Positions 1 to 33,537 of a stretch of DNA of 36,637 nucleotides are shown here, in pieces. Position 1 is the first letter of the stretch, and the number at the start of each line of letters is the position of its first letter. Under the pieces are notes generated by a model. It made no database searches. It was not told where the DNA came from and saw nothing but the letters and a program-made list of their open reading frames with translations. This DNA is from an uncultured Bacteroidota bacterium (lineage in GTDB: Bacteria; Bacteroidota; Bacteroidia; Bacteroidales; UBA12481), in contig CAIXKO010000053.1 of NCBI GenBank assembly GCA_903919925.1, positions 1 to 36,637 of the forward strand, given 5' to 3'. Made by a program: the position numbers and the translations under genes.

Positions 1-488
1 AGCTGGCGTGGGATCGTTGTTCTAACCTCCCAGAACAATGGTTCCATACTGCTCAGCTGGCCGCGCAATTCCAGGCGAATATTGCGTCCCAGAAAATTTC
101 GATCCGCTATGCCAAGCCTGATGGAACCAAATGGCGCCTGCAACCTTCCCGCGATCACCGGAGCTATCATAAAAGCATCGCGTGCAGCAATATGTAATAC
201 TGACCGACCATCAGGTAATGAATCCCACCGGTAATCCACGATGGCAAAATTCTGCATGTTCCATATTTTTTTCAGCGAAACGCTCAGGCTTTCTGTGGTA
301 ACAGTATCTCCCTTTTGAAACTCCAGCTCCGATAAAATAATCCGGCTGCGTGTGCGCCAGTTGCGTTCTAAAACAATCGTATCGGCTATCCTTGGAGTAA
401 AATCTTGAACTCTAACTAATTGGGCAACCAACAAACCCGGCATTAACAAAACTATGGCCAAAAGGAACAGTAAGGGCTTAAAATTCAT
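1..488 (-). CDS. Omp85/POTRA-type outer-membrane protein, N-terminal part (cut by window edge)
   Basis: This open frame begins with an ATG at 488 and runs without a stop through the left edge, giving about 162 residues. Residues 1-22 look like a signal peptide: short polar start, Leu/Ile/Val-rich core, ending near LLVAQ. Residues about 27-105 resemble a single POTRA domain: an opening strand around ADTIVLERN, a stretch reading IILSELEFQKGDTV, a helix around LSVSLKKIWNMQNF, and a closing strand around RSVLHIAARD. The following RLGIADRNFLGRNIRLELRG looks like the first strands of an Omp85-type beta-barrel. Proteins of this type insert or export other proteins at the outer membrane. Seen directly: signal peptide and repeat pattern. 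Inferred: family. It lies 62 nt downstream of the kinase at 551, so co-transcription is possible but not shown. The barrel is outside the window, so which Omp85 subfamily it belongs to cannot be told. Confidence 0.6.
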   Translation of the reverse strand, partial: MNFKPLLFLLAIVLLMPGLLVAQLVRVQDFTPRIADTIVLERNWRTRSRIILSELEFQKGDTVTTESLSVSLKKIWNMQNFAIVDYRWDSLPDGRSVLHIAARDAFMIAPVIAGRLQAPFGSIRLGIADRNFLGRNIRLELRGQLSSMEPLFWEVRTTIPRQ

Positions 489-550: not shown

Positions 551-2269
551 TTAGCCTGGCAGCATAAAGGCGAACATACTCCCCTGTCCTTGTTCACTTT
601 CCACCCATATTCTGCCATTAAGAAGCTCAATCAGGCCTTTGCACAGTGACAACCCCAATCCAGCCCCTCCAATCTTTGCTGTATGGTGTGATTCCACTTG
701 GTGAAACCGGTCGAAAACATGATTCAACTGGTCGTTGCTTATTCCTATGCCGGTGTCTCTAACAAAAAACAGGACAGAATCATCGTGCTTTTCCAGCGAG
801 ACCTCAATCCTACCCACCATAGTAAATTTCAAGGCATTATTGACCAGATTTGTCAAAATTTGGTGCAATTTCAGTGAATCAGTTTGTATGGTCAATTCTC
901 GCAGGTCTTCTGGTATAATTTCCACCAGCTCGATTGCCTTTTGATTCGCCATCAACCGAAACAGGTTGGCAACTTCCTTTATTGCGTTTGATGGTTTCAC
1001 CGTGCTGATCCTGATGGTCTCAGTTCCTGATTCAATTTTACTTATATCAATCAAATTATTGATCAGTTGTAAAAGACGATCACCACTGGCTTTGATAATG
1101 GATGAATATTTTACCACATTTTCCAAAGAGTTTTCTTCCTCACTAAGCAAATCGGAAAATCCAATGATACTGTTCAGCGGTGTCCTGATTTCATGCGACA
1201 TATTGGCCAGGAATGCAGATTTCAACCGATCGCTTTCTTCTGCTTTCTTTCTCGCTATCACAAGATCATCAATTAATTGCATTCTCTCCGTGATATCATG
1301 GGATATGGTTTGTACTGAGTAAACAGAACCGTCAGGTGCAATTTCGGGCACAAACCGTATGCTGAAAAACCTTAGGCCATAAGGAGTAACAGACTCATCT
1401 TCAAATGTTAAAATCTCACCCGTTTCAAAAACCGTCCGAATATACGTCCCCCATTTTTGGGCTTTCTGTAGTGGCATTCCAACTTCCATCAGGTCTTTGC
1501 CAATATACTCATCAGGTCGCAAAACCCCGGCGTTGGCTGCGGCAGGGTTAACATACAAATGCTGGCAGCTTTTATTGAACCGCGCAATCAAATCCGGCGA
1601 ACTTTCAGCCAGAAACCGGTATTGCATCTCTGAGATTTGTAATTTCTCCTCGGAACGCCTCCGCTCTGCAAGCTCATTTTCCAATTCCATTGTACGCTCT
1701 TGTACCAGCGATTCCAAACTTTCATTGAGTTCAGATAATTCTTCCCTGGTCTTTATAAGCTCCTCATTTTGTTGAATGGCACCCTGATAGATGCTAACCA
1801 TCAGGTTGATGATATTCTGGGGATCGGTTTGAATGAATCGTCTTTTGCCCTGGAATGAGATTTCCAAACCCAGCGTTCTTTTCCCGGTGTTGCTTTCAGC
1901 TTGATCTCCAAGTATCATTTCGATAAATGACAGAAGGAATTCTTCCTTGAATGGCTTAGTAATGAAACTGTCCGCTCCACAGGAAAGCCCCTCCACAACC
2001 TCCTCAGGACCGCTTAAAGAGGTTAACAGAATCACTGGAATATTTTCCGTTGCTTTTGCTGATTTTATACGACGGCAAAGCTCATAGCCATTCATATTTG
2101 GCATCATAATATCAGAGATAACCAACGCCGGCCTATTATTTGACAGCCAGTCCAGCGCTTTTTGACCATCATTGGCAACTACCACTTTATAATCATGATC
2201 TTCCAGAACACTGCTTAAAATAAGTGCCTGAGTAAGACTATCCTCTGCCACTAAAATAAGTTCATTCAT
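551..2269 (-). CDS. REC-PAS-histidine kinase, probable output of the chemosensory operon
   Basis: A 572-residue cytoplasmic protein without membrane segments. Residues 1-125 are a CheY-like receiver: acidic pair E9/D10, phospho-acceptor D53 in ISDIMMP, and K105 in TKPF. Residues about 160-215 are strongly heptad-like (coiled coil). Residues about 215-330 form a PAS domain ending in HDITER. Residues about 345-412 are HisKA with phospho-acceptor H359 in NMSHEIRTP. Residues about 465-572 are the HATPase_c domain with the N box (LTNLVNNALKF), DTGIGIS and GAGLGLSL. It is the last gene of the operon, 31 nt after cheB, in the position where Pseudomonas wsp operons carry the REC-GGDEF protein WspR. 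The likely reading is that CheA phosphorylates D53, which then adjusts kinase activity at H359. No partner response regulator lies beside it, so the target is unknown. Confidence 0.9.
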   Translation of the reverse strand: MNELILVAEDSLTQALILSSVLEDHDYKVVVANDGQKALDWLSNNRPALVISDIMMPNMNGYELCRRIKSAKATENIPVILLTSLSGPEEVVEGLSCGADSFITKPFKEEFLLSFIEMILGDQAESNTGKRTLGLEISFQGKRRFIQTDPQNIINLMVSIYQGAIQQNEELIKTREELSELNESLESLVQERTMELENELAERRRSEEKLQISEMQYRFLAESSPDLIARFNKSCQHLYVNPAAANAGVLRPDEYIGKDLMEVGMPLQKAQKWGTYIRTVFETGEILTFEDESVTPYGLRFFSIRFVPEIAPDGSVYSVQTISHDITERMQLIDDLVIARKKAEESDRLKSAFLANMSHEIRTPLNSIIGFSDLLSEEENSLENVVKYSSIIKASGDRLLQLINNLIDISKIESGTETIRISTVKPSNAIKEVANLFRLMANQKAIELVEIIPEDLRELTIQTDSLKLHQILTNLVNNALKFTMVGRIEVSLEKHDDSVLFFVRDTGIGISNDQLNHVFDRFHQVESHHTAKIGGAGLGLSLCKGLIELLNGRIWVESEQGQGSMFAFMLPG

Positions 2270-2300
2270 AATGATTCTTATAGTTAAACACCGACGTCAT

Positions 2301-3359
2301 TTATTGAGCGGCATGGTTATTTTTGCATAATTCTGAAAGCTTCTCAACAATTCGCCCCGGTGAAAGTATCTTGTCAGCAGCTCCAATTTTGACTGCCTCC
2401 CCCGGCATTCCGAAAACGACACAACTAGCTTCATCCTGAACGATGGTAAAGGCCCCTTTGGTCTTCATGGTTTTCAATTCCCGTGCTCCATCTCTTCCCA
2501 TCCCGGAAAGTAACACACCAATTGCTCCCGGTCCGGCTACTTCTGCCACCGACCGGAAAAGATAATCAACCGATGGACATAAACCATTTTCAGGCTGACT
2601 TTTCTTGAGTGAAATTTTAATTCCCGGTGATACTCCCATCTGATAATCATCGGGTGCGATGTATCCATGCCCAGGTATCAGAAAATCACCATTTTGCGCA
2701 AGATGCAAGGGGATGGCTGATGAATCAGACAACCAATCAACAAAGCCTTTAACGAATCCTTTTGAAATATGCTGAACTATCAGAACCGGCACCGGCAAGT
2801 TCTTAGGCAATCCCGAAAGGATGGTTTTCAATACCAATGGCCCACCGGTAGATGCACCAATAGCGATTAACTTAATATCAAGGCTGGAACTTGGTTCAGC
2901 AGCACTGAATACAGGTAACGGGATCCTTTCCTTTAATTGATTTGGAAATCGCTTGACCACTTTTATCTCTGACATCAGTTTTACTGTTTGAACCAGCGTT
3001 TTACGGGCACCGGCAAATCCAGGGTCATCCATTGATGGCGGACGAAGTACCACTGCAAGGGCACCAGCTTCAAACAACCGGAAAGAATTTATCGCATGCG
3101 TTACACCGGCGCTGGCGCTAACAATTACAATTGGGGTAGGTACTGTCTCCATGATGATGCGTGTTGCTTCATAGCCATCAAGCCCCGGCATGTGGATATC
3201 CATAGTGACAACATCAGGCCGGAATTCAGTTATCAGCCGGATGGCTTCTTCGCCCGAATTTGCGATGCCAATTATCTGAATATCTGGGTCGGAACTTAAA
3301 AGATGAGCAATAAATTCCTGTGCCACTCTCGAATCATCAACGATAATTGTTCTTATCAT
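2301..3359 (-). CDS. cheB: CheB-type protein-glutamate methylesterase with receiver domain (WspF-like)
   Basis: 352 residues. Residues 1-120 are a receiver (D8/D9, phospho-acceptor D54 in VTMDIHMPGLDG). Residues about 160-345 are the CheB methylesterase/deamidase domain. The catalytic triad expected for the family is visible: S170 in IGASTGGP, H197 in IVQHISKG and D290 in SGMGRDG. The enzyme removes methyl groups from glutamates on the MCP signalling helices, opposing CheR, and is switched on by phosphorylation from CheA. Its ATG overlaps the stop of cheA by 4 nt (ATGA), indicating translational coupling. Length and domain order match ordinary CheB and WspF. No CheD is present nearby. Identification is secure; the WspF comparison rests on operon context. 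Confidence 0.95.
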   Translation of the reverse strand: MIRTIIVDDSRVAQEFIAHLLSSDPDIQIIGIANSGEEAIRLITEFRPDVVTMDIHMPGLDGYEATRIIMETVPTPIVIVSASAGVTHAINSFRLFEAGALAVVLRPPSMDDPGFAGARKTLVQTVKLMSEIKVVKRFPNQLKERIPLPVFSAAEPSSSLDIKLIAIGASTGGPLVLKTILSGLPKNLPVPVLIVQHISKGFVKGFVDWLSDSSAIPLHLAQNGDFLIPGHGYIAPDDYQMGVSPGIKISLKKSQPENGLCPSVDYLFRSVAEVAGPGAIGVLLSGMGRDGARELKTMKTKGAFTIVQDEASCVVFGMPGEAVKIGAADKILSPGRIVEKLSELCKNNHAAQ

Positions 3360-5644
3360 ATTAATTTCCTTATTACCTCCAATAAATTTCCTTGATCAAA
3401 ACTACTTTTAACTATATAAGCGTCTGCACCAGCTTCGATACCCCTCTCCTTATCATCTCGCGATTCAAGTGATGTAACCAGTACAACGGGTATGTCCCTT
3501 AGCCTGGTATCAGACTTAACCTTCACCGTAAGCTCAAATCCATTCATTCTTGGCATATCTACATCGGAAAGAATAAGGTCAAATTCTTCACTTCGTGCAC
3601 GTGTGTAGGCAGCTGCGCCATCAATCGCTGTTACAACCTGATATCCTGCCGTTTCCAAAATATTCTTTAATAAAGTCCGTGAGGTAATCGAATCTTCAGC
3701 CACCAATATCCTGCCGGTATTTCTTATCGGGGCGTCTTCTTTAATTTCCGGCTTTTGGAGACCAATACCCCGGGCAGCTGACTTCATTAAATCTGCAACA
3801 TGAATAACAGGCACAATTTTACCAGAACCTAAAATGGTTGCACCGGAAATATTTCTGACCCGTTTAAGCAATTTGCCGAGCCCCTTTACCAATACTTGCT
3901 GCTCTTCAACCACTTCATCAACTTTAAAAGCGATACGGGTTTGCCCCGAAACCAGAACGACAACCTTGATTTGAGATGAAACAGGAACACCTTTTGGCGG
4001 AGTCCCTCTCCGTGTCTGCACCGGCTGCGGCAAACCAAGAACCTCTGCCATACTTACCAACGCAAGAATGTTGTCACCAATCCTGATCGTATCCCGGTTT
4101 TCAATTGTTGCAATTTGTTTATATTCTATACGTTGCACACACTCAACATTCAGGGTTGGCATAATAAAAAAGTGATCGCCAAGACTAATCATTATCCCTC
4201 TGAAAGTGGCCAGAGTCAGTGGAAGAATCAAATGAAAAGTGGTTCCGGCTCCTTCTTTTGTTTCCATGGACAATCTGCCATTCAGGTTTTCAACCTTCTC
4301 CTGTACAATGGAAAGACCAAGTCCACGACCAGAAAGATCGGTGATTATAGAACTGGTTGACAACCCTGAGTGGAAGATCAGAGAAAGAATTTCATCCTGA
4401 TTCAAGTCCATGACAGAATCATCCTGAACTATCCCGGATTTGACAGCGGCTTTCAAAACCTTTTCTACATCAATTCCTTTACCATCATCGGACACGGTAA
4501 TCTCAAACAAACCATTCTCTTTTGCGGAAAATACCAGGCTAATCGTGCCGCGTGGCGGCTTATTATGCATCATCCGCTCCTGGCTTGTGCCAATCCCATG
4601 GTCAATACTATTTCTGATTAAATGAATCAGCGGGCCCTTAAGCTCTTCCAAAACTCGTTTATCAATTTCCAATTCCGATCCTTGCACAACAAATTCAATA
4701 TCTTTTTGCTGATCCATTGAAATTTCCCTCACCATAGCCGGAAATGCTTCAACCAGGGATGAAACAGGCAGCATCAGCAATTGTTTCATCGAATCCAGGT
4801 GATCATTTACCAAAAGGTCGAATTCATGGTGATCCTTTTCAAGATAATGCGTAACCGTATTTAAATGGTTTTCCAGATTGTTTAATCGAAATTCCGTAGC
4901 TTCAAGCCATTCATTCCATTGAGGTAAAGAGACCTTTGTCCTTCGCGACTTCCATTTCCGGGAAGTTGCCTTCCATTCCAAAATTTCTTCATGAATTACT
5001 TTTAGCTCATTAATCTGCTGATTAACCGAGATTTTTACCTGTAAGAATTCTTCCGCCTGCAAAAGTAGAGGGTCAAGTTTTGACACAGGAATCCTGACTA
5101 TTTCCGAGAAAGTTTTTTTAATCATTTTATCTGAAACAGGGGAAGCAACCTGAGCTTGCAATGAAGCTTGCTGCGTGTCATCATGCTCTGTTTCTGCTGC
5201 ATGACCGGCAGAAATCTCACCGTTGTCAAGGAAATCAGGACCGGCATTCTTCAATCGAAGGACCAGATCCCTCACTTTTTCCCGATCTTCATGGGATGCC
5301 TTCATCTCTGCAGATGCAATAATTTTCGAGATCAGTTCCATCGTTTTAAAGAACAGGTCAAATGACACTTTGGTTAATCCAACCTGATTCTTTTTAAGTC
5401 CGGCAAAGATTGTTTCCAAAGGATGGCAAACCATTTCAATCTCTTTGTTACCCACTGAACGAGCCGCACCTTTAAGACTATGAATTTCGCGAAACATTGA
5501 TTCTATCAATGCAGGAGCACTCTCACTTATCGGGGCTTTCTCCAGCTGAACCAGCCCGGCAGAAAAGGCATTTAGATGTTCTTCAGCCTCGATCCGGAAG
5601 GTTGCCTGAATCCGTTGAAGAAACTCTATGTCTTTAATATCCAT
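3356..5644 (-). CDS. cheA: CheA-type histidine kinase with C-terminal receiver (WspE-like hybrid)
   Basis: 762 residues, cytoplasmic. Residues 1-130 are the Hpt/P1 domain with phospho-acceptor H55 in REIHSLKGAARS. Residues about 175-300 form a helical P3-type dimerisation region. Residues about 310-476 are the P4 ATPase (N345 in LIRNSIDHG, DDGKG 386-390, GRGLGLSIV 439-447). Residues about 478-622 are the CheW-like P5 domain. Residues about 645-762 are a receiver (D651, phospho-acceptor D694 in LSDVDMP, K746). The CheA-REC fusion is characteristic of WspE, FrzE and related alternative systems rather than the flagellar CheA. No P2 docking domain is obvious. The fused receiver may act as phosphate sink or as an internal relay; the partner phosphorylated by H55 would be this receiver, CheB, or the receiver of the kinase at 551-2269. 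It starts 26 nt after the MCP gene. Confidence 0.95.
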   Translation of the reverse strand: MDIKDIEFLQRIQATFRIEAEEHLNAFSAGLVQLEKAPISESAPALIESMFREIHSLKGAARSVGNKEIEMVCHPLETIFAGLKKNQVGLTKVSFDLFFKTMELISKIIASAEMKASHEDREKVRDLVLRLKNAGPDFLDNGEISAGHAAETEHDDTQQASLQAQVASPVSDKMIKKTFSEIVRIPVSKLDPLLLQAEEFLQVKISVNQQINELKVIHEEILEWKATSRKWKSRRTKVSLPQWNEWLEATEFRLNNLENHLNTVTHYLEKDHHEFDLLVNDHLDSMKQLLMLPVSSLVEAFPAMVREISMDQQKDIEFVVQGSELEIDKRVLEELKGPLIHLIRNSIDHGIGTSQERMMHNKPPRGTISLVFSAKENGLFEITVSDDGKGIDVEKVLKAAVKSGIVQDDSVMDLNQDEILSLIFHSGLSTSSIITDLSGRGLGLSIVQEKVENLNGRLSMETKEGAGTTFHLILPLTLATFRGIMISLGDHFFIMPTLNVECVQRIEYKQIATIENRDTIRIGDNILALVSMAEVLGLPQPVQTRRGTPPKGVPVSSQIKVVVLVSGQTRIAFKVDEVVEEQQVLVKGLGKLLKRVRNISGATILGSGKIVPVIHVADLMKSAARGIGLQKPEIKEDAPIRNTGRILVAEDSITSRTLLKNILETAGYQVVTAIDGAAAYTRARSEEFDLILSDVDMPRMNGFELTVKVKSDTRLRDIPVVLVTSLESRDDKERGIEAGADAYIVKSSFDQGNLLEVIRKLI

Positions 5645-5670
5645 TTCCGAAACAATTTTTCTCAGATTTA

Positions 5671-7743
5671 CTAAACCTTAACCTGATTAATTAATTCCTT
5701 AAGCTTTTGTCCGAGTTCATACAAACTTTTTGCTGATTTTTCGGCTTGTATCATACTAACCGCCGTTTCGGTTCCTGCCTGATTAATATTTTGCATGGCC
5801 ACACCAATTTGGTCCATCCCAACTACTTGTTGCTGGCTCGATGCAACAATTTGAGTAGCTGCCTGGGCAGCTTCATTGCTGCTTTCGGCAAGAATTCTGA
5901 TAGCTTCACCGGCTTGCATGGACTGTTTGACTCCCGACTCAACCGCTTTGCCTCCCTGCTCGGTAGCCATAACTGCAGCCCCGGTAGCTTTTTGAACATC
6001 ATTAAGAATATTCCTGACCTGTGCGGTAGCGAGTTTGGATTGGCCTGCCAGATTCTTGATTTCCTGAGCAACCACCGCAAATCCCTTTCCGTGTTCACCC
6101 GCTTTTGCGGCCTCTATGGCTGCATTAACAGCCAGCAAGTTGGATTGGTCAGCAATATCAGTAACAGAAGCAATAATCCCGCCGATCGATTGACTTTGCT
6201 CGCTCAAACGGATAACAGTTTGGGCAATAGTTTCCATTTGCTCGCGTATCCTTTCCATACCGTTAATCGTTTCTTCGACTGCTTTTTGTCCGTTCTGAAA
6301 AACCAGGGATAATTGAAGTGCGCTGTCTGCAACATTTTTTGCCTTTTGTGCTGAAAGTTTAGCTGCTTGCTGAACCTCCTCCACCGTGGTGGAAGTTTCA
6401 GTAATAGCGGTTGCTGTTTCTGCTGTGCCAGTGGCTACCTGTGATGTTGCTGCTGAAATTTCTGCCGATGATGCTGCCAAAACATTGACCGTTTCTTTAA
6501 CTTCCAAAATCAGATTTAACAGATCGGCTGTTCGATTCTGAACCATTTCTTCCAGTTGGTCGCGATAGGTCGCCAATTCATTTTCCTGCCTGTTACGATC
6601 AGAAATATCACGAGCCGCAGCAAAAACACCTTGCACTATTCCAGCTTCATTCCTGTATACACTTGCATTATACAAAACCTCAATGGACCCACCCAGGGCA
6701 TTCCTGAGGGTTAATGGATAATCCCGGACAATTCCCTGGGAAAATGCCTGCCCGTAACCAGCCCTTGCACGATCAGGTTCAGTAAAATAATCGGCAAAGT
6801 CACTACCGATCAATTTTTCCTTTGAAGTTCCGGTAACCTTTACCGTGGCACGGTTTACATCGGTGATCTTGCCATCTGCACTGATCGTGACTAAAGGATC
6901 CAAACTGGCTTCAATCAGGTTTCTGGCGTATTGTGAGGCTTCCTTCATGTCCTCTTCCATCTCAATTCTATGGGAAATACTTTCATTGAAAGATCGAATC
7001 ATAACAGACAATTCATCTGCCCCTTTTTGATAATCCGACAAATCCATATTAAGATCCCTGGTAGTCACCAGCTTTGTAGCCACAGCCAGCGGTTTTGTTA
7101 TACCCAAAGTCAATAATAAGGCCAGAACAAAGGCCAGTCCGAAGGCAATTCCTCCGGTTATGAAAATAAAAAGCTTGATATTGTCATATATCCTGGTAGA
7201 GTTCTGAAAACCTTCTAATGCTATTTCGCTCTCCATATTGATCAGATTGTCGATAGCAGAAATCCAATCTTGTACTTTTGGCCTGGCACTGTTAAGCATC
7301 AAAATCAGCGCTTTATCGAAATCTCCCACACCCAAAAGTTTTATTACGGCATCATTGTATCCTCTCGATTCCTCCTGCAGAATCTTTACTTTGGAAACCT
7401 GTTCAAGCAACGCCTGGTGATTCTTTGGAACCATTTTCTGGTATTTCTCAAAATCCGCATCATAAATCTTTCTTAAATCATCTATCGTTTTCGATTTTAA
7501 CTCATTACTGCTGTATGATTTATCGAGAAGCATAGAACGAAGCTCAATCGAAACTTCACGTGTTGCATCAATCATCCTATTAGCCAGTTTTGCACGTGAG
7601 TTTTCAATATTAATAGTAGTATCCAGGTTTTGGTAAATCTTATTGATGGAATCAATCCCTACCGCCACCAGGATTAGGATAAACATCATCATGATTCCAA
7701 ACCCGAAGGCCAAACGAGCCCCGATCTTCCTGTTTTTAAACAT
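5671..7743 (-). CDS. Methyl-accepting chemotaxis protein: periplasmic 4-helix sensor, HAMP, PAS, signalling domain
   Basis: 690 residues. TM1 is about 12-31 and TM2 about 190-213, enclosing a mostly helical periplasmic region (about 32-189) that fits a four-helix-bundle sensor. A HAMP domain follows (about 214-265, with GITKPLA), then a PAS domain (about 270-385, ending in ARDISDR), then the long coiled-coil signalling domain (about 400-690). The conserved hairpin tip that contacts CheA and CheW is clear at about 528-560 ([20 protein letters not shown], then [12 protein letters not shown]). It therefore has two possible inputs, periplasmic and cytoplasmic. No C-terminal pentapeptide tether for CheR/CheB is visible; the protein ends KELINQVKV. 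It is the only receptor gene in the operon and would be the WspA counterpart. The ligand cannot be told from sequence. Confidence 0.95.
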
Positions 7744-7761
7744 CGATTATTCCTCCCGCAA

Positions 7762-8283
7762 TTAATTTACTTCTTGATTAACAACTAATTTTTTGTCTGA
7801 TATAAATTTCCTGGCATCCAGGATAATCAGTCCATCTAAGGTAATTCCCATTAAATACGTTTTCTCCGAACCTGAAATAGTAACCGGAACTTCTTTGATT
7901 TTATCAATCTCTAAGGATTGGGTTCCGTGGACTGTATCGGCAAGGATTCCGAATTCAATCTGATCATGGCTAAGAATGATCACCTTATTCAGCTCCCCTA
8001 AACCCTGATCCGGAAGTTGAAGAATTTTCTTCAGGTCGATTACCGGCATGATTTGTCCCCGAATGTTCATGATACCAAAAATATATTCAGGAACTCCGGG
8101 CAATGGTGTAAAGTCTTTCATAGGGTAAACCTCTCTGATAAAAGCTGACTCCAGGCAATAGTTCTCTGAACCGAGAGCAAAGGAAACAACCTCCATAATT
8201 GCAGAAGGAGATCCTTTTTGCTCTGGCTCTTTTGCCATGGCAATCGCCCGGATCCTTAGAATTTCCTGATTTTCTTTACTCAT
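7762..8283 (-). CDS. cheW: CheW-like coupling protein 2
   Basis: 173 residues forming one CheW domain (about residues 27-165). Seen: MEVVSFALGSENYCLESAFI, the loop PLPGVPEYIFGIMNIRGQIM followed by PVIDLKKIL, which is the typical CheW core, and a late strand QIEFGILADTV. The first 26 residues are a charged extension absent from minimal CheW. CheW bridges the tip of the MCP and the P5 domain of CheA in the array. The ATG overlaps the cheR stop by 4 nt and the MCP gene follows after 18 nt. With the other CheW at 9709 it brackets cheR, as WspB and WspD bracket WspC. Which copy corresponds to WspB or WspD is not resolvable. Confidence 0.92.
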   Translation of the reverse strand: MSKENQEILRIRAIAMAKEPEQKGSPSAIMEVVSFALGSENYCLESAFIREVYPMKDFTPLPGVPEYIFGIMNIRGQIMPVIDLKKILQLPDQGLGELNKVIILSHDQIEFGILADTVHGTQSLEIDKIKEVPVTISGSEKTYLMGITLDGLIILDARKFISDKKLVVNQEVN

Positions 8284-9716
8284 TTCTTCCTTTCTGATTT
8301 CAAGTTTGCCTGAACTATTTCCTTGAGGTAAACCGAGGCTAAACCCTCCGATTCAGGGGCAATATAATCATCATTACAAGCATTTAACAGATCCAGTGCA
8401 TTTTGCAGATATCGTATCGCCATTTTGGTCTTCCCCTGCCCGATTAACAAATTCCCAAGATTAAAATGTCCCATAATAAACCCCGGATCCAGGTAAATGG
8501 CTTGTTTGAGCGCCAAGATTGCTTCACTAATTTTTTCGAGCTCCACTAATATCGACGACCGGATAAAATACAACCCACTGTCAAGCTTATCCTTAGCAAT
8601 CGATTCATCACAGAGAATCAATGCATCGATCAGATAACCATTGTCTGCTAAATCCGCAATTTTTTGTCTATTGCTTGTCATACCCTCCTCCGGTATGACA
8701 ACTATCTCGACGGGACGATCATGAATCACCATCCCAACGGCTGGAGCAGTATCCTTGGGTATAAATGGATTTGAAACAAACGCAGCCTCTTCCTGAAGTT
8801 TTCCAATAAAATCAGGAACTACTTCAGGAGAATCAAAACTCTGAAATTCTGTGGATTGATAACAATTCGTATCACTTTTGGAGTAAATTACAGCACCGGG
8901 AAAATTAACAGAAGTAAACTGTGGAAACACCTGCGAAGAGAGTTCACATGAGGAAACTACAAACCATCCTTTTGGTGCAAGACACTTATAAAAATCCCCT
9001 ACAATTTTTTCCAGCCAGTCGCTGGTAAAATACATCAGAACATTTCTGCAAAAGAGAATATCAACATCATTCAGCTCCCTTTGAGGGGCCAGATGGTTGA
9101 TTTGAGTCAGGTTTAGTTTGATAAAGGTGACCATCTCCTTTATCTCGGGAACCAGTTCATAACGGGAACCATCCAACCGATTAAAATAATTCTGGATTAA
9201 CCATGGCGGGCAATTACGGAATGACCAAGGGGTGTACACAGCCGATGCAGCCTTTTCAAGGGCTACCCGATTGATATCGGAAGCCAGAATACTTATTGTC
9301 CATTCGCTGATGTCCGGGATTGTCCGATGAAGGGCAATTGCCAGAGAATAGGGCTCTTCTCCGGTTGAGCATCCCGCGCTCCAGATCCTGATCGTTTTGT
9401 CTCCATTCCTTTTTGATTCAATTAATTCAGGAAGAATGATCCCGGTTAGCGCATTAAAAACCTGTGGTTCTCTCCAGAAATAGGTTTCTGAAATAGTTAG
9501 ATGAGACACCAGAATATCAACCTGGCTTTTATTCAACTCATTAGCTAATAACCAATCAAGAAATGAAGATGAATCAGAGTACCCAAAATCTCTCGCAGCC
9601 GAAACCAGATTCCTGCCAAGCATTGGCCATCGGTCCTGCGGGAAGTGTAAGCCCGTAAGTGCTGCTATTACGGTGCACACGCTTTCAAACTCACTATGGG
9701 TGAGATCACTATTCAT
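8280..9716 (-). CDS. cheR: CheR-type MCP methyltransferase with C-terminal TPR repeats (WspC-like)
   Basis: 478 residues. Residues about 1-270 are the CheR methyltransferase: N-terminal all-helical part, HLTISETYFWRE at 72-83, the SAM-binding loop WSAGCSTGEEPYS at 112-124, and FCRNVLMYF at 222-230. After a variable linker (about 275-345), residues about 350-465 hold tetratricopeptide-type repeats; the clearest unit spans AILALKQAIYLDPGFIMGHF and the next LGNLLIGQGKTKMAIRYLQN. The enzyme transfers methyl groups from S-adenosylmethionine to glutamates on the MCP. A CheR with a TPR tail is typical of Wsp-type systems, where the TPR is thought to serve protein docking. Since the MCP here has no pentapeptide tether, TPR docking is a plausible substitute. 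The start overlaps the preceding cheW by 8 nt. Confidence 0.93.
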   Translation of the reverse strand: MNSDLTHSEFESVCTVIAALTGLHFPQDRWPMLGRNLVSAARDFGYSDSSSFLDWLLANELNKSQVDILVSHLTISETYFWREPQVFNALTGIILPELIESKRNGDKTIRIWSAGCSTGEEPYSLAIALHRTIPDISEWTISILASDINRVALEKAASAVYTPWSFRNCPPWLIQNYFNRLDGSRYELVPEIKEMVTFIKLNLTQINHLAPQRELNDVDILFCRNVLMYFTSDWLEKIVGDFYKCLAPKGWFVVSSCELSSQVFPQFTSVNFPGAVIYSKSDTNCYQSTEFQSFDSPEVVPDFIGKLQEEAAFVSNPFIPKDTAPAVGMVIHDRPVEIVVIPEEGMTSNRQKIADLADNGYLIDALILCDESIAKDKLDSGLYFIRSSILVELEKISEAILALKQAIYLDPGFIMGHFNLGNLLIGQGKTKMAIRYLQNALDLLNACNDDYIAPESEGLASVYLKEIVQANLKSERKK

Positions 9717-10188
9717 TTAAAGGTTTTGCTAGTGCTTCGTCCAGGCTATGTTCCTCATCCAGACTCAGGAACTTTTCAAGGTCATATATTAACACAAGGT
9801 TATCGTCCAATTTTGCCACACCACTTATATATCCAACAAATGCCAAAGAATGGGAAGCCTCTTCAAATTGGCCCGGAAGCAACACCCTGACTTCGGTTAC
9901 TGAGCTAACAATGAAAGAGATCAACCTTCTCCCCGTGTCAGCTATAATCATCCTCTCACCTGGATCAATCTCCTTTGCTGGTAGCGAGAGTCGCTTCCGG
10001 ATATCAACAACCGGGATAATTTGTCCCTGGACGTTGATAATACCCGAAATAATCTCAGGCGAATTTGATAAATTCCTGACTTCAATGGCATGAATTACCT
10101 TCACTACCGAGTGCAGTGGAATACCATAGAAAAGCTCATCAAGCATAAATATCACCACTTGATCGTTTTCTACAAAACTTTTTTCCAT
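9709..10188 (-). CDS. cheW: CheW-like coupling protein 1, first gene of the chemosensory operon
   Basis: 159 residues from the ATG at 10188; the frame is also open from a TTG six bases further out, but the ATG is preferred. One CheW domain fills the protein: VVIFMLDELFYGIPLHSVVK, then LSNSPEIISGIINVQGQIIP with VVDIRKRL, and a later strand RRLISFIVSSV. It links receptor and CheA in the signalling array. It opens a run of seven genes with overlaps or gaps of at most 31 nt. A TACCTTTA box lies at 10232-10239, about 45 nt upstream, as a possible -7 element. Having two CheW genes flanking a CheR-TPR gene is the Wsp arrangement. Confidence 0.92.
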   Translation of the reverse strand: MEKSFVENDQVVIFMLDELFYGIPLHSVVKVIHAIEVRNLSNSPEIISGIINVQGQIIPVVDIRKRLSLPAKEIDPGERMIIADTGRRLISFIVSSVTEVRVLLPGQFEEASHSLAFVGYISGVAKLDDNLVLIYDLEKFLSLDEEHSLDEALAKPLNE

Positions 10189-10239: not shown

Positions 10240-10295
10240 AAAAAATAATCTGATCAGCACCTCCCCATATTATCACACCAGCATAACACCACATG

Positions 10296-10383
10296 ACCAC
10301 ATTACCACATTACCACATTAGTACATTACCACATTACCACATTAGCAAATTAGCATATTAGCACATTAGCATATTAGCACATT
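10296..10383. repeat. Eleven tandem copies of an 8-bp unit (accacatt / agcacatt)
   Basis: Reading the plus strand, eleven consecutive 8-bp units start at 10296: accacatt three times, agtacatt, accacatt twice, then agcaaatt, agcatatt, agcacatt, agcatatt, agcacatt. Positions 1 and 7-8 never change, and variation is confined to positions 2, 3, 5 and 6. The last unit includes two bases of the dnaG stop codon (10382-10384), so the array sits exactly at the 3' end of dnaG, between it and the chemosensory operon. There are no spacers, so it is a minisatellite and not CRISPR. A role in transcript ending or as slippage-prone DNA is conjecture. Confidence 0.9.
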
Positions 10384-12346
10384 AAATAATTATCCTTCTC
10401 AGCTCCTTTGAGTACGCCTTCCGGAGCTCCTCCAACTGCCTTCGATCCTCCAATAGTCCGGTAATAAGACCATCGTCCTCAGTGCCCTGGAGGTTTCTGA
10501 TTTGATCATCGATCAAACTGATCATTTGTTTTACCTTTTTGCTTCGGTAGGAAGCCAGAACCTCAGGAGCGAGGATCCTGATAATCTGATCCTCGGAACG
10601 AACGTATGCTCCTCCTTTTTCGTGTATCTTACTAATCTGATAACCAGGTGTTAACAAATCTACTGCCAGGTGACTGATCTCAGAATCCTGGCTATTGGTA
10701 AGCATGGTTTGCACATTAATACCCGGGCTTCCCCATTTGTCTTGAAATTCATGGAAAACTTTGGCATAAATCGGATTTTCGGGTACGAGATTATCGGTTT
10801 CCATCTCTTGCAAAAAGAAATCCATTACGCTGATTGGTGTGGTCTCACCGAGATGCTCACCCGGCAATTCGATGACAATTTTATCCGGGTAATTCAACAT
10901 CAGGCGGATAATTTCACGTTCTTCCGTTTCAAAAAGTGAGGTAGAAGAAATCGCCGGCGAAACAGCATTCGGATCGGTCTGCCGGGGTGCAGAAATATCC
11001 TGGACAGGTGTATATTCACCTTTACCTGTTCGATTGGCCTCCCACTGTTTGCGCTTGATACGGGCAGCCTCAGTAAACAGCGTTTGCTCATCAACTCCAA
11101 GCATGGTACTACACTCCTGGAGATAGACGGTTCGCTCAATCCGATCGGGAATTATCGCAACTGAACGAACCACTTCCTGTATCATCTGGGCACGTTTTAC
11201 CGGATCTTTGCCTGCATCCTCAAGCAGCAGCTTTGTTTTAAAACGGATAAAATCGGTTTCATTGTTTTTCAGGTAATCGAGCATAGCTGCTGAGCTGTGC
11301 GAACGTGCAAATGAATCGGGATCTTCACCCACCGGCAATGATACCACCCTTACATGCATCCCCTCAGCAAGTATCATATCTATTCCACGCAAGGAAGCCT
11401 TGATCCCGGCAGGGTCGCCATCATAAAGTATGGTAACGTTTATGGTGAACCGCTTGATCAAACGGATCTGATCCTCAGTAAGAGAAGTCCCGGAACTTGC
11501 CACAACATTCTCAATACCTGTTTGATGCATAGACAGAACATCCGTGTAACCTTCTACCAGAATGCACTTATCTTCTCTCACCATGGCATTCCTGGCAAAG
11601 TAGATTCCGTAAAGGGTAGCCGACTTATGATAAATTTCAGATTCCGGTGAGTTCAGGTATTTTGCTGCCTGGGCATCACTACGGAGAATGCGCCCTCCAA
11701 AGCCAATGATTCTGCCGGACAGACTATGGATGGGAAAAATTACCCTACCTGAAAACCGGTCAAAAAACCGATCATTCTTCTCGATTCCCAACCCGGTTTT
11801 AATAATATATTCCTGCTTATATCCACTTTTAAGTGCCTCTTTTACAAAGGCATCACGTTGCTCGGGCGAATAACCCAATTGGAATTTTTCAATAATCTCC
11901 CGTCTGAAACCCCTTTCCTTAAAATAGCCAAGTCCAACCGCACGACCTTCGTCTGAATCGTTCATGATTCGTGAAAAGTACTTCCAGGCAAACTCATTGA
12001 GAATCATCATCGACTCCCGCTCGTTTTTTTGCACAAGCTCCTCAGCCGACTCCTCCGTTTCAGCAATCTCGATGTGATATTTTTTAGCTAGCCAACGGAG
12101 CGCATCAGGGTAAGTCAGATGTTCATGCTCCATCAGGAAATTAACTGAATTACCCCCTTTCCCGCAACCAAAACATTTAAAAATACCTTTAGAAGGAGAA
12201 ACGGTGAACGATGGAGTTTTTTCATTATGAAAAGGACATAGCCCCAGAAAATTCACGCCTCTTCTTTTCAAACTCACAAAATCGCCAACCACATCTGTGA
12301 TCTCAGCAACCTGAATAATTCGCTCAATAGTGGAATAGTCAATCAT
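10382..12346 (-). CDS. dnaG: DNA primase
   Basis: 654 residues from ATG 12346; a GTG two codons upstream is possible, but homologues typically begin MIDxxTI, as this ATG gives. DnaG makes RNA primers for the replication fork. Residues about 35-62 are the CHC2 zinc finger (CPFHNEKTPSF, then CFGCGKGG). The Toprim catalytic region has the acidic motifs ILVEGYTDVLSMHQ (about 265) and ILYDGDPAG (about 310). The C-terminal third (about 470-654) is the variable helicase-binding part. Length fits bacterial DnaG. It is the last gene of a run that starts at mraZ, 22 nt after the Sir2 gene, so it may be co-transcribed with division genes. Its stop codon lies within the 8-bp tandem array. Confidence 0.96.
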   Translation of the reverse strand: MIDYSTIERIIQVAEITDVVGDFVSLKRRGVNFLGLCPFHNEKTPSFTVSPSKGIFKCFGCGKGGNSVNFLMEHEHLTYPDALRWLAKKYHIEIAETEESAEELVQKNERESMMILNEFAWKYFSRIMNDSDEGRAVGLGYFKERGFRREIIEKFQLGYSPEQRDAFVKEALKSGYKQEYIIKTGLGIEKNDRFFDRFSGRVIFPIHSLSGRIIGFGGRILRSDAQAAKYLNSPESEIYHKSATLYGIYFARNAMVREDKCILVEGYTDVLSMHQTGIENVVASSGTSLTEDQIRLIKRFTINVTILYDGDPAGIKASLRGIDMILAEGMHVRVVSLPVGEDPDSFARSHSSAAMLDYLKNNETDFIRFKTKLLLEDAGKDPVKRAQMIQEVVRSVAIIPDRIERTVYLQECSTMLGVDEQTLFTEAARIKRKQWEANRTGKGEYTPVQDISAPRQTDPNAVSPAISSTSLFETEEREIIRLMLNYPDKIVIELPGEHLGETTPISVMDFFLQEMETDNLVPENPIYAKVFHEFQDKWGSPGINVQTMLTNSQDSEISHLAVDLLTPGYQISKIHEKGGAYVRSEDQIIRILAPEVLASYRSKKVKQMISLIDDQIRNLQGTEDDGLITGLLEDRRQLEELRKAYSKELRRIII

Positions 12347-14792: not shown

Positions 14793-16241
14793 CTAATCTA
14801 CCACATCAAATAGATATGGATTATTAGATCGCAGCTTATTATCTGGTCCCATGGTATATCTTGATTGTTTTTTTTCATCAAACAACAGTTCCTCCTGGCC
14901 AGGTGCCTTTTTTCTCTTATAAGCAGGTATTCTCTCAGCCTCGTCAATCAAATCAGGGTTTGAAAGATTATGGTAATTGAGCTCTTTAAGCCGGGCAACC
15001 TTAGCTTGCTCTTCGGCAGCATTTGATTGAGCAGGATGATCCCTATGAATAGAATCTTTGAATATTTCGCGCTGTACAACCTTGATATCCTGATTATTCA
15101 GAACCGGAAAAATAGATGGTGACGATTGAATACCAGGTTCAGGATGCTTGTACTCCCTTACTGGAGGCTCCACATTTTCAACTTTGGGTGCCAGATTAAC
15201 CGGTCTGAACTTCTCCAGGTTAACTACCTCCTTTTTAGGCGGAGTCAGGCTCAGCCAATCTGGAATCATATCCTCACGAAAACCTGTAGCTACGAGTGTA
15301 ATTCTAATTTCATCCGTTAGTTTTTCATCTGTGCATGTACCCCATATAACATTAACCGAAACTCCGACGCGGGCCATTATTGCATCGGTGATAATACCCA
15401 CTTCGTCCACGGTAATCTCCTCCTGTCCAGAGGTGATATTGAGCAAAATCTTGCTGGCGCCACGGATATCGTTACTGTAAAGAAGTGGAGAATTAATGGT
15501 TTCAACTATAACGTTCCTGGCCCGGTCAAAGCCTCGTGCAGTGGCTGATCCCATGAATGCAATACCCCCTTTGGACATAACGGATATCACATCAGCAAAG
15601 TCGACGTTAATGTACCCATGAACGGTAATGATCTCCGCAATCCCTTTAACTGCAAGCAAGAGAATATCATCAGCCTTTTTAAATGCTTCACCTAAAGATA
15701 GGTTCTTGCAATTTTCGCGCAATTTTTCATTATGAATAATCAGCAAGGCATCAACATCGTCTTTCATTCGGTTGATTCCCTGTAAAGCCTGCAATTGGCG
15801 CGAAGGACCCTCTATGGTAAAAGGGAGTGTAACCACCCCAACAGTCAGTATATTCAAATCCCGGCATGCTCTGGCTATTACAGGGGCAGCACCGGTTCCG
15901 GTACCTTTTCCCATTCCGGCAACAATGAATACCATCCGGGTTTGGCCTTGCAGCATCTCCGATATCTCATTAATGCTCTCAATGGCAGCCTGCTCTCCAA
16001 CATCGGACCGCTTACCTGCTCCCCGGCCCTCTGTGAGGGTGGCACCCAACTGTATCTTTTTCTCAACCGGACTGGCATTTAAAGCTTGTGCATCTGTATT
16101 TGCAACAATAAAGTCAACATCGTTTATACCCTCGCGGAACATACGATTTACAGCATTGCACCCGCCTCCACCGACTCCGATAACAGAGATAATCGGGCTT
16201 TCATGGAATGGAAGGTTGAAATCCACCAGATCGTCAAACAT
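14793..16241 (-). CDS. ftsZ: Second FtsZ (divergent tandem paralogue)
   Basis: 482 residues. Tubulin-like GTPase core about residues 17-320: VIGVGGGGCNAVNRM (20-34), NTDAQAL (48-54), and the signature loop GMGKGTGTG (109-117), where position 112 is Lys instead of the usual Gly. The T7 catalytic loop is intact: N212, D214 and D217 in NVDFAD. A long linker follows, then a tail containing IPAYKRKK and ending NNPYLFDVVD. Residues 20-217 align with the first FtsZ without gaps. It lies 27 nt downstream of that gene and 7 nt before the sigma-like gene. An intact frame and intact T7 loop argue for a working GTPase or co-polymer subunit; the Lys change may alter nucleotide binding or turnover. It probably co-assembles with, or regulates, FtsZ1. 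Confidence 0.93.
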   Translation of the reverse strand: MFDDLVDFNLPFHESPIISVIGVGGGGCNAVNRMFREGINDVDFIVANTDAQALNASPVEKKIQLGATLTEGRGAGKRSDVGEQAAIESINEISEMLQGQTRMVFIVAGMGKGTGTGAAPVIARACRDLNILTVGVVTLPFTIEGPSRQLQALQGINRMKDDVDALLIIHNEKLRENCKNLSLGEAFKKADDILLLAVKGIAEIITVHGYINVDFADVISVMSKGGIAFMGSATARGFDRARNVIVETINSPLLYSNDIRGASKILLNITSGQEEITVDEVGIITDAIMARVGVSVNVIWGTCTDEKLTDEIRITLVATGFREDMIPDWLSLTPPKKEVVNLEKFRPVNLAPKVENVEPPVREYKHPEPGIQSSPSIFPVLNNQDIKVVQREIFKDSIHRDHPAQSNAAEEQAKVARLKELNYHNLSNPDLIDEAERIPAYKRKKAPGQEELLFDEKKQSRYTMGPDNKLRSNNPYLFDVVD

Positions 16242-16268: not shown

Positions 16269-17531
16269 CTAAACCATTTTCTCATCCTTGTTGTCAAACA
16301 AGGTCCCAACAAATCTGCCGATAGCTCCCTGCTTGCGAGTTGCCTTGGCTCTCTCTTTCTTCCTGTGCTTGGTTTCTTCCGGATCAGAAGATATCGCCGG
16401 AGCCATATCTTCAGCGGCACCACCCTCCACTTCCAATGGTACCTGGTCAGGAGTTTGTATCGGGCCAAATAAACCGTGAGGAAGGTTGTGATATTCGTGG
16501 TCCTGCCGATGGACGTATGATTTTTGACTCTGTATTGGCTTTAGTTCACCCAACCCGGTCTCAGATTCCAGGCCGGTAGCAACAATGGTTACACTCAACG
16601 CATTTCCAAGAGACTCATCATAGGTATTACCCCAAATAATATCGGATTGTATCTGGGTGCAATGCTGGATAAAATCCATGATTTCGGTTATCTCATCCAT
16701 TAGCACCTCCTGCTTTCCTGAGGTGATATTTAGCAGAATGTTCTTGGCTCCCCGGAGATTATTATTGTTCAGCAAAGGCGATATCAGTGCTTTGCTGATT
16801 GCCTCGTAAGCCCTGTTTTCTCCTTCAGCTACTCCGGATCCCATAATGGCCACGCCGCTCCGCTCCATTACAGTACGAACATCGGCAAAGTCAACATTAA
16901 CATAGCCGTGAACGGTAATGATTTCCGCAATCCCTTTGGCTGCCATGGCCAAAACATTATCGGCATATCCAAAAGCAACTGAAAGTTTCTGATCCTGGTA
17001 AATATCCCGTAACCTATCGTTATGGATTACCAACAGTGCATCAACATATTGCTTCAAATTCCTGATCCCTTCAACTGCCTGGTTCCATCGTTTCTGCCCT
17101 TCAAACGAAAATGGCAGGGTTACGATCCCCACGGTGAGTATCCCAAGCTCGGTTGCTGCTTCAGCGATAACCGGTGCGGCTCCTGTTCCTGTTCCGCCTC
17201 CCATACCGGCCGTCAGAAATACCATCTTGGTGTTGTCACCCAGTAACCTCCTGATATCCTCGATATTCTCGAGCGCCGAATCCCTCCCCTTTTCAGGTTC
17301 GTTACCGGCTCCCCTTCCATAGGTGAGTGTCTTTCCTAATTGCACCTTGTTGGGAATCGGACTGGTTTGCAACGCCTGATTGTCCGTATTGCAAATAACA
17401 AACTCAACACCTCTTATTCCTTGCTGATACATGTGATTAACGGCATTGCTCCCTCCGCCGCCTACCCCGATCACCTTAATGATCGATTTAGATTCCCGGG
17501 GCATTTCGAATTGATATACGTCTTCAAACAT
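16269..17531 (-). CDS. ftsZ: Cell-division protein FtsZ (canonical copy)
   Basis: 420 residues. FtsZ polymerises with GTP into the division ring at mid-cell. Residues 18-34 carry IKVIGVGGGGSNAVNHM, 48-54 NTDNQAL, 109-117 GMGGGTGTG (canonical signature), and the T7 loop has N212, D214 and D217 in NVDFADV. The core ends near residue 325. The C-terminal segment is short and ends in a basic and hydrophobic stretch (GAIGRFVGTLFDNKDEKMV), not the IPAYKR/NNPYLF type tail of the downstream copy. It sits 18 nt after ftsA, in the place expected for dcw clusters. The two copies thus seem to divide features: standard GTP loop here, longer linker and tail in the other. Identity is secure. Confidence 0.97.
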   Translation of the reverse strand: MFEDVYQFEMPRESKSIIKVIGVGGGGSNAVNHMYQQGIRGVEFVICNTDNQALQTSPIPNKVQLGKTLTYGRGAGNEPEKGRDSALENIEDIRRLLGDNTKMVFLTAGMGGGTGTGAAPVIAEAATELGILTVGIVTLPFSFEGQKRWNQAVEGIRNLKQYVDALLVIHNDRLRDIYQDQKLSVAFGYADNVLAMAAKGIAEIITVHGYVNVDFADVRTVMERSGVAIMGSGVAEGENRAYEAISKALISPLLNNNNLRGAKNILLNITSGKQEVLMDEITEIMDFIQHCTQIQSDIIWGNTYDESLGNALSVTIVATGLESETGLGELKPIQSQKSYVHRQDHEYHNLPHGLFGPIQTPDQVPLEVEGGAAEDMAPAISSDPEETKHRKKERAKATRKQGAIGRFVGTLFDNKDEKMV

Positions 17532-33474: not shown

Positions 33475-33492
33475 AGACGCATAATTGCGTCT
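33475..33492. repeat. Stem-loop agacgca-taat-tgcgtct
   Basis: Perfect 7-bp arms, agacgca (33475-33481) and tgcgtct (33486-33492), around a 4-base loop. Its right arm belongs to the first copy of the 20-bp tandem repeat. It lies between convergent genes glsB and purF and could help end transcripts from either side, though there is no clear T run after it. Confidence 0.6.
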
Positions 33493-33537
33493 GTTTTAGC
33501 ATAATTGCGTCTGTTTTAGCATAATTGCGTCTGTTTT
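33481..33537. repeat. Three tandem copies of a 20-bp repeat
   Basis: The unit ataattgcgtctgttttagc occurs at 33481-33500 and 33501-33520, and its first 17 bases again at 33521-33537. There are no spacers. The rest of the 223-bp intergenic region (33415-33637) holds a purine-rich stretch just after glsB (33415-33446), the stem-loop at 33475 and a 14-bp palindrome at 33562. No coding signal was seen. Confidence 0.9.

Follow-up and report, generated by a model that had tools for sequence, protein, structure and literature searches.

The window, a stretch of 36,637 nucleotides that forms the whole of contig C53 of an uncultured Bacteroidota bacterium, carries a seven-gene chemosensory operon of the alternative-function type, a widespread class that has been described before. 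The operon falls in a lineage with the plan CheW, CheR-TPR, CheW, methyl-accepting chemotaxis protein (MCP), CheA-REC, CheB and REC-output. Its CheA probably phosphorylates residue D53 of the histidine kinase encoded last in the operon, and would thereby gate a response regulator encoded at an unlinked site. The output kinase shares a conserved extension of its receiver domain with the outputs of related operons. The assembly is a metagenome-assembled genome of 7.0 Mb in 916 contigs, with 5.4% contamination.

Operon organization

Seven open reading frames on the reverse strand (551..10188) encode, in order, CheW, CheR-TPR, CheW, MCP, CheA-REC, CheB and REC-PAS-HisKA-HATPase (Table 1). The spacing between neighbours is -8, -4, 18, 26, -4 and 31 bases, the genes for CheR-TPR and the first CheW sharing 8 bases. 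Pfam matches, spacing and key residues all confirm the original prediction of seven tightly packed genes with these domains. The start proposed for the first CheW, ATG 10188, likewise holds; the mechanical open reading frame begins at TTG 10194, two codons ahead of it. Judged by this spacing and the intact catalytic residues, the seven genes likely form a single operon that is presumably active.

The MCP is laid out as a transmembrane segment, a periplasmic four-helix bundle, a second transmembrane segment, a cytoplasmic PAS domain and the signalling hairpin (transmembrane windows 6-37 and 188-223), and its C-terminus lacks the CheR-binding pentapeptide. Both phosphorylation residues of CheA, H55 in the Hpt domain and D694 in the REC domain, are present, as are D54 and GASTGG in CheB. 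The output kinase contains D53 (REC), H359 (HisKA), the N-box, G1 and G2; it has no transmembrane windows and is therefore soluble.

Table 1. Chemosensory genes and the receiver extension in the window
Feature	Position	Strand	Description
CheW 1	9709..10188	-	159 aa from ATG 10188; Pfam CheW 5.9e-28
CheR with C-terminal TPR	8280..9716	-	478 aa; Pfam CheR 1e-46; TPR at 382-443
CheW 2	7762..8283	-	173 aa; Pfam CheW 1.5e-29
MCP	5671..7743	-	690 aa; Pfam 4HB_MCP_1, PAS, MCPsignal
CheA-REC hybrid	3356..5644	-	762 aa; Hpt, HATPase, CheW-like domain, REC (Pfam, motif positions, alignment)
CheB (REC and methylesterase)	2301..3359	-	352 aa; Pfam CheB_methylest 1.1e-60
Output kinase REC-PAS-HisKA-HATPase	551..2269	-	572 aa; Pfam REC/PAS_4/HisKA/HATPase
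Conserved REC extension of the output kinase	1724..1918	-	residues about 118-182; alignment of 78 outputs

Beyond the kinase gene, the contig stops within a partial gene for an exported protein (3..488), which matches no Pfam family and lacks homologues in other chemosensory loci. This partial gene is all that lies downstream, and a linked response regulator at that end of the operon was rejected. In genomes of the same genus, the kinase gene is followed by a gene for a peptide chain release factor 3-like GTPase (identified by eye). Since the next gene differs in these genomes and the partial gene lacks homologues in the other loci, the operon was taken to terminate at the kinase.

Three further features of the window were recorded. 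The intergenic region between the first CheW gene and dnaG, just upstream of the operon, holds 12 tandem copies of the 8-bp unit ACCACATT (10288-10384). Two complete tandem ftsZ-like genes lie on the reverse strand (14793-16241 and 16269-17531; 482 and 420 aa, both with Pfam Tubulin and FtsZ_C), placed after ftsA inside an mra/mur/fts cluster; an adjoining second FtsZ is unusual. Three perfect copies of the 20-bp unit GCATAATTGCGTCTGTTTTA occupy an intergenic position at 33479-33537.

Genome context

The genome encodes two CheAs and two MCPs in total, paired in two operons of this plan. The second operon, on contig C50, is divergent; there too a REC-HisKA-HATPase gene comes after CheB, and a long stretch of two-component genes follows. 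The two CheAs are 42% identical and fall in separate clades of the CheA tree, and the pair is therefore not a recent duplication. Dozens of further REC domains are encoded elsewhere in the genome. Near the second operon, contig C50 also carries a gene for a glycoside phosphorylase domain (GH130) with a C-terminal receiver domain (L009:386-2251) and genes for MEDS and PocR sensor proteins.

CheY and flagellar parts are absent from the window, as had been predicted, and neither this genome nor any of 40 relatives has the flagellar export gene FlhA. No ATPase of the PilB/PilT family was found in the genome by a search that was positive in 14 of 14 control genomes. A homologue of GldL, a component of the gliding/type IX secretion motor, is present. 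Because FlhA and a PilB/PilT-type ATPase are both missing, the array most likely serves an alternative cellular function (ACF), an assignment for which our own CheA tree stood in for the published class HMMs (F1-F19, Tfp, ACF). The cluster has the features of such systems: a CheR fused to TPR, a multidomain response regulator as output and, judged by the missing FlhA and PilB/PilT-type ATPase, no dedication to a flagellar motor or to type IV pili. A flagellar chemotaxis system, the counter-case named in the original prediction, was rejected, FlhA being absent and the CheA standing apart from flagellar CheAs in the tree. The proposal of a non-flagellar array with a second histidine kinase as its operon-encoded output is thus upheld.

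Phylogeny and distribution

The operon is patchy among relatives, such a CheA occurring in 5 of 41 (its own genome counted). A scan of named genomes gave at least 80 loci, of which the best matches were listed; these include Bacteroidota, Ignavibacteriota, Thermodesulfobacteriota, Myxococcota, Verrucomicrobiota, Acidobacteriota, Nitrospirota, Pseudomonadota and other phyla, together with archaea (ANME-2 and Methanomicrobiales). The order CheW-CheR-CheW-MCP-CheA-CheB-output, for which a survey of Bacteroidota had been suggested, recurs in more than 10 phyla, Bacteroidota among them, and in archaea. A plasmid search returned alphaproteobacterial relatives. Two loci labelled as archaeal, an ANME-2 cluster archaeon (L051) and a Methanomicrobiales archaeon (L080), carry this operon with both CheR-TPR and CheA-REC. 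The label of a third locus, a Klebsiella pneumoniae MAG (L086), is doubtful; its CheA groups with those of the betaproteobacterial Polaromonas and Hydrogenophaga loci.

In 54 of the 92 loci in which CheB was located, the gene directly after it is of the REC-histidine kinase type, whether or not it carries further RECs. In 28 loci that gene encodes a different REC protein, with a GGDEF motif in 6 of them; the remainder are contig ends or other genes. Outputs other than REC-histidine kinases include several REC-GAF/PAS-GGDEF-EAL proteins, one HisKA_2 kinase and one REC-SpoIIE protein. The REC-histidine kinase is the commonest output in the lineage of the window.

The CheA tree comprises 117 CheAs and is a quick tree in which amino-acid composition is uneven in many rows. 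It places the window CheA with that of Prolixibacteraceae bacterium UBA6029 (support 99), inside a lineage that is not that of Wsp, and separate from the flagellar and Tfp-type outgroups. Along the tree the output type switches at least 26 times and the type of gene order only twice.

Relation to Wsp

The operon had been described as Wsp-like, with a histidine kinase in the slot of WspR. The parts do agree with those of Pseudomonas Wsp, which likewise has an MCP, two CheWs flanking a CheR-TPR, CheA-REC, CheB and a REC-output, and the MCP signalling domain can be aligned with those of Wsp-operon MCPs without any indel and has the same length. Burkholderia moreover offers a precedent for the replacement of the WspR diguanylate cyclase by a kinase: WspH (WspHRR), a REC-containing histidine kinase in a Che-like operon, stands where Pseudomonas has WspR and is thought to act on the DNA-binding regulator RowR (PMC8552884; PMC4324302). 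That the window operon is a true homologue of wspABCDEFR which underwent the same swap is nevertheless highly improbable. Its MCP gene lies between the second CheW and CheA, whereas in the Wsp order the MCP comes first, and the hairpin tip of the MCP differs from the EAEKAGEYG of most Wsp MCPs. The window output has no GGDEF domain and so is not the REC-GGDEF protein of Wsp type; conversely, the GGDEF outputs of the Wsp clade all lack the receiver extension seen in the window kinase. The published survey places Wsp only in beta- and gammaproteobacteria (PMC8552884). The gene for WspH is at the 5' end of its cluster, which is of the Wsp family.

The placement of the window CheA among Wsp-order CheAs, a check proposed with the original prediction, gave the same answer. 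The reference rows were picked by synteny (MCP first, GGDEF last), and nearly all come from the class of Rhodanobacter rather than from named Pseudomonas. Joined by a similar locus drawn from the phylum, they form one clade of 13 rows (SH-aLRT 100, stem 1.33), and the window CheA stands outside it; forcing it into the clade is 118 log units worse (AU p = 6.6e-6 under the model used). Judged by these sequences, the window operon is not a Wsp variant. The match in parts stands, and the analogy is limited to it; the gene order and the CheA clade do not agree. The notion of a WspR slot is likewise not sustained, since a REC-histidine kinase is the commonest output of this lineage and its extension is lacking in WspR-type outputs.

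Receiver extension of the output kinase

The extension comprises about 65 residues, with the consensus GxEIxFxGxxxxITxxRxQILDLLxSTYExAVxxNxEL in the 78 aligned outputs, and has no Pfam match. The AlphaFold2 model shows a beta-hairpin (134-147) and a long helix from residue 150 (mean pLDDT 90; hairpin 71-82). Profiles made from random halves of the alignment recovered 34-38 of 42 held-out outputs. They also matched 18 of 113 other REC proteins in the same loci, which for the most part look like extra outputs of these clusters or outputs of duplicate loci, and matched none of the GGDEF outputs of Wsp-order loci. The extension is common to the outputs of the window's lineage, whichever effector follows.

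Among 392 genomes drawn across the phylum, most strong matches to the extension (E < 1e-18) have a CheA no more than about 3 kb away; those away from CheA are orphan REC-kinases (G118:C6, G362 and G291). The extension is strongly tied, yet not confined, to chemosensory operons. Weak matches were seen in REC proteins of one family in the phylum, in roughly two dozen genomes. Two genes with no CheA nearby (L218:5976-7265 and L223:5138-6427) encode a weakly matching REC fused to what appears by eye to be a class III nucleotide cyclase.

A PDB search with the extension profile gave no significant match, and Foldseek with the model of REC and extension returned REC domains only, the best being 3gt7, a Syntrophus kinase receiver (46% identity). 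We infer that the extension is a relay, and perhaps a recognition element. More tentatively, REC, beta-hairpin and long helix may together constitute a dedicated output adapter that is recognised and driven by CheA, with the effectors (kinase, GGDEF-EAL, GGDEF, SpoIIE phosphatase) swapped behind it.

Proposed mechanism and alternatives

The membrane MCP would sense its signal through the periplasmic four-helix bundle and the PAS domain, and would assemble with the two CheWs and CheA into an array adjusted through methylation by CheR and demethylation by CheB. When active, CheA would autophosphorylate at H55 and pass its phosphate to its own C-terminal REC (as sink or feedback), to D54 of CheB (adaptation) and, by analogy with CheA3/CheS3, to D53 of the output kinase. 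Phosphorylation of this REC may then be relayed through the hairpin and the long signalling helix to the PAS domain and the HisKA/HATPase core. There it would set the balance of kinase and phosphatase activity toward a separate response regulator encoded elsewhere. In favour of this explanation are the domains and intact residues, the recurrent gene order, the CheA tree, the absence of FlhA and PilB/PilT-type genes, the REC-histidine kinase after CheB in the second operon of the genome, and published cases of the same output principle; against it, no dedicated response regulator was found beside the window operon. REC-LuxR regulators adjoin the operon in two close relatives (L048 and L133), a hint of a transcriptional end point. 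Of the REC-LuxR genes in this genome, the two most similar to them were rejected as targets, each having its own neighbouring REC-PAS kinase.

It is improbable that the array instead steers motility such as gliding, with the kinase as an accessory. Frz of Myxococcus steers gliding without flagella, and for the roles first suggested, in surface sensing, gliding or envelope behaviour, the GldL homologue is the only hint in the genome; however, GldL is also present in Bacteroidota that have type IX secretion but do not glide, the operon has no single-domain CheY, and no gliding gene adjoins it. Another reading makes CheA input a minor modulator, the kinase serving chiefly as a phosphatase, as a REC sink, or as a branch point that takes most of its input from its own PAS domain. 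That the kinase carries such a domain agrees with this reading, as does Rhodospirillum CheS3, an independent kinase whose activity is modulated by CheA3 (PMC3868531); in the Myxococcus Che3 cascade, as summarised in the same paper, control of a separate two-component pair is exerted through a phosphatase effect. The computed results agree with this reading as well as with the preferred one. The HisKA and HATPase motifs of the window kinase are all intact, and we regard this reading as rather unlikely.

Comparison with known systems

A histidine kinase as the output of a chemosensory operon, as in the preferred explanation, is an already known principle, since it is published for CheR-TPR clusters, CheA3/CheS3 and WspH. 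According to Munoz-Martinez et al. 2012 (PMC3447774), a kinase module is present in about 40% of the response regulators of cheR-TPR clusters, and many ACF pathways with CheR-TPR occur in strains without flagella. The pathways described there resemble that of the window in the CheR-TPR of the cluster and the REC-HisKA/HATPase output, sometimes with PAS, and differ from it in nothing essential; a text search of the paper gave no mention of Bacteroidetes, and the sections consulted do not describe the 65-aa extension.

In Rhodospirillum centenum, CheA3 phosphorylates a receiver of the REC-PAS kinase CheS3 (PMC3868531). The Che3 cluster (CheA3/CheS3/CheY3), like the window, unites CheA-REC, CheB, CheR, two CheWs, one MCP and a REC-PAS-kinase, but CheS3 combines two RECs with an HWE kinase and CheY3 is encoded in the cluster, whereas the window kinase has one REC and HisKA, with no linked CheY (PMC3868531). 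The Prolixibacteraceae bacterium UBA6029 locus (L048), nearest in the CheA tree at about 60% identity, has the same gene order and a REC-histidine kinase output; upstream of CheW it additionally carries REC-LuxR, REC-PAS-HK-REC and single REC genes, and its output kinase has two PAS domains.

Arrays that steer a second kinase are a normal and deeply spread form of signalling in non-flagellated organisms, including Bacteroidota, and not a curiosity that arose from Wsp. Through the shared REC extension it can be tested how one CheA lineage drives different output enzymes. If the adapter reading is true, such arrays could be rewired to any output with CheA unchanged.
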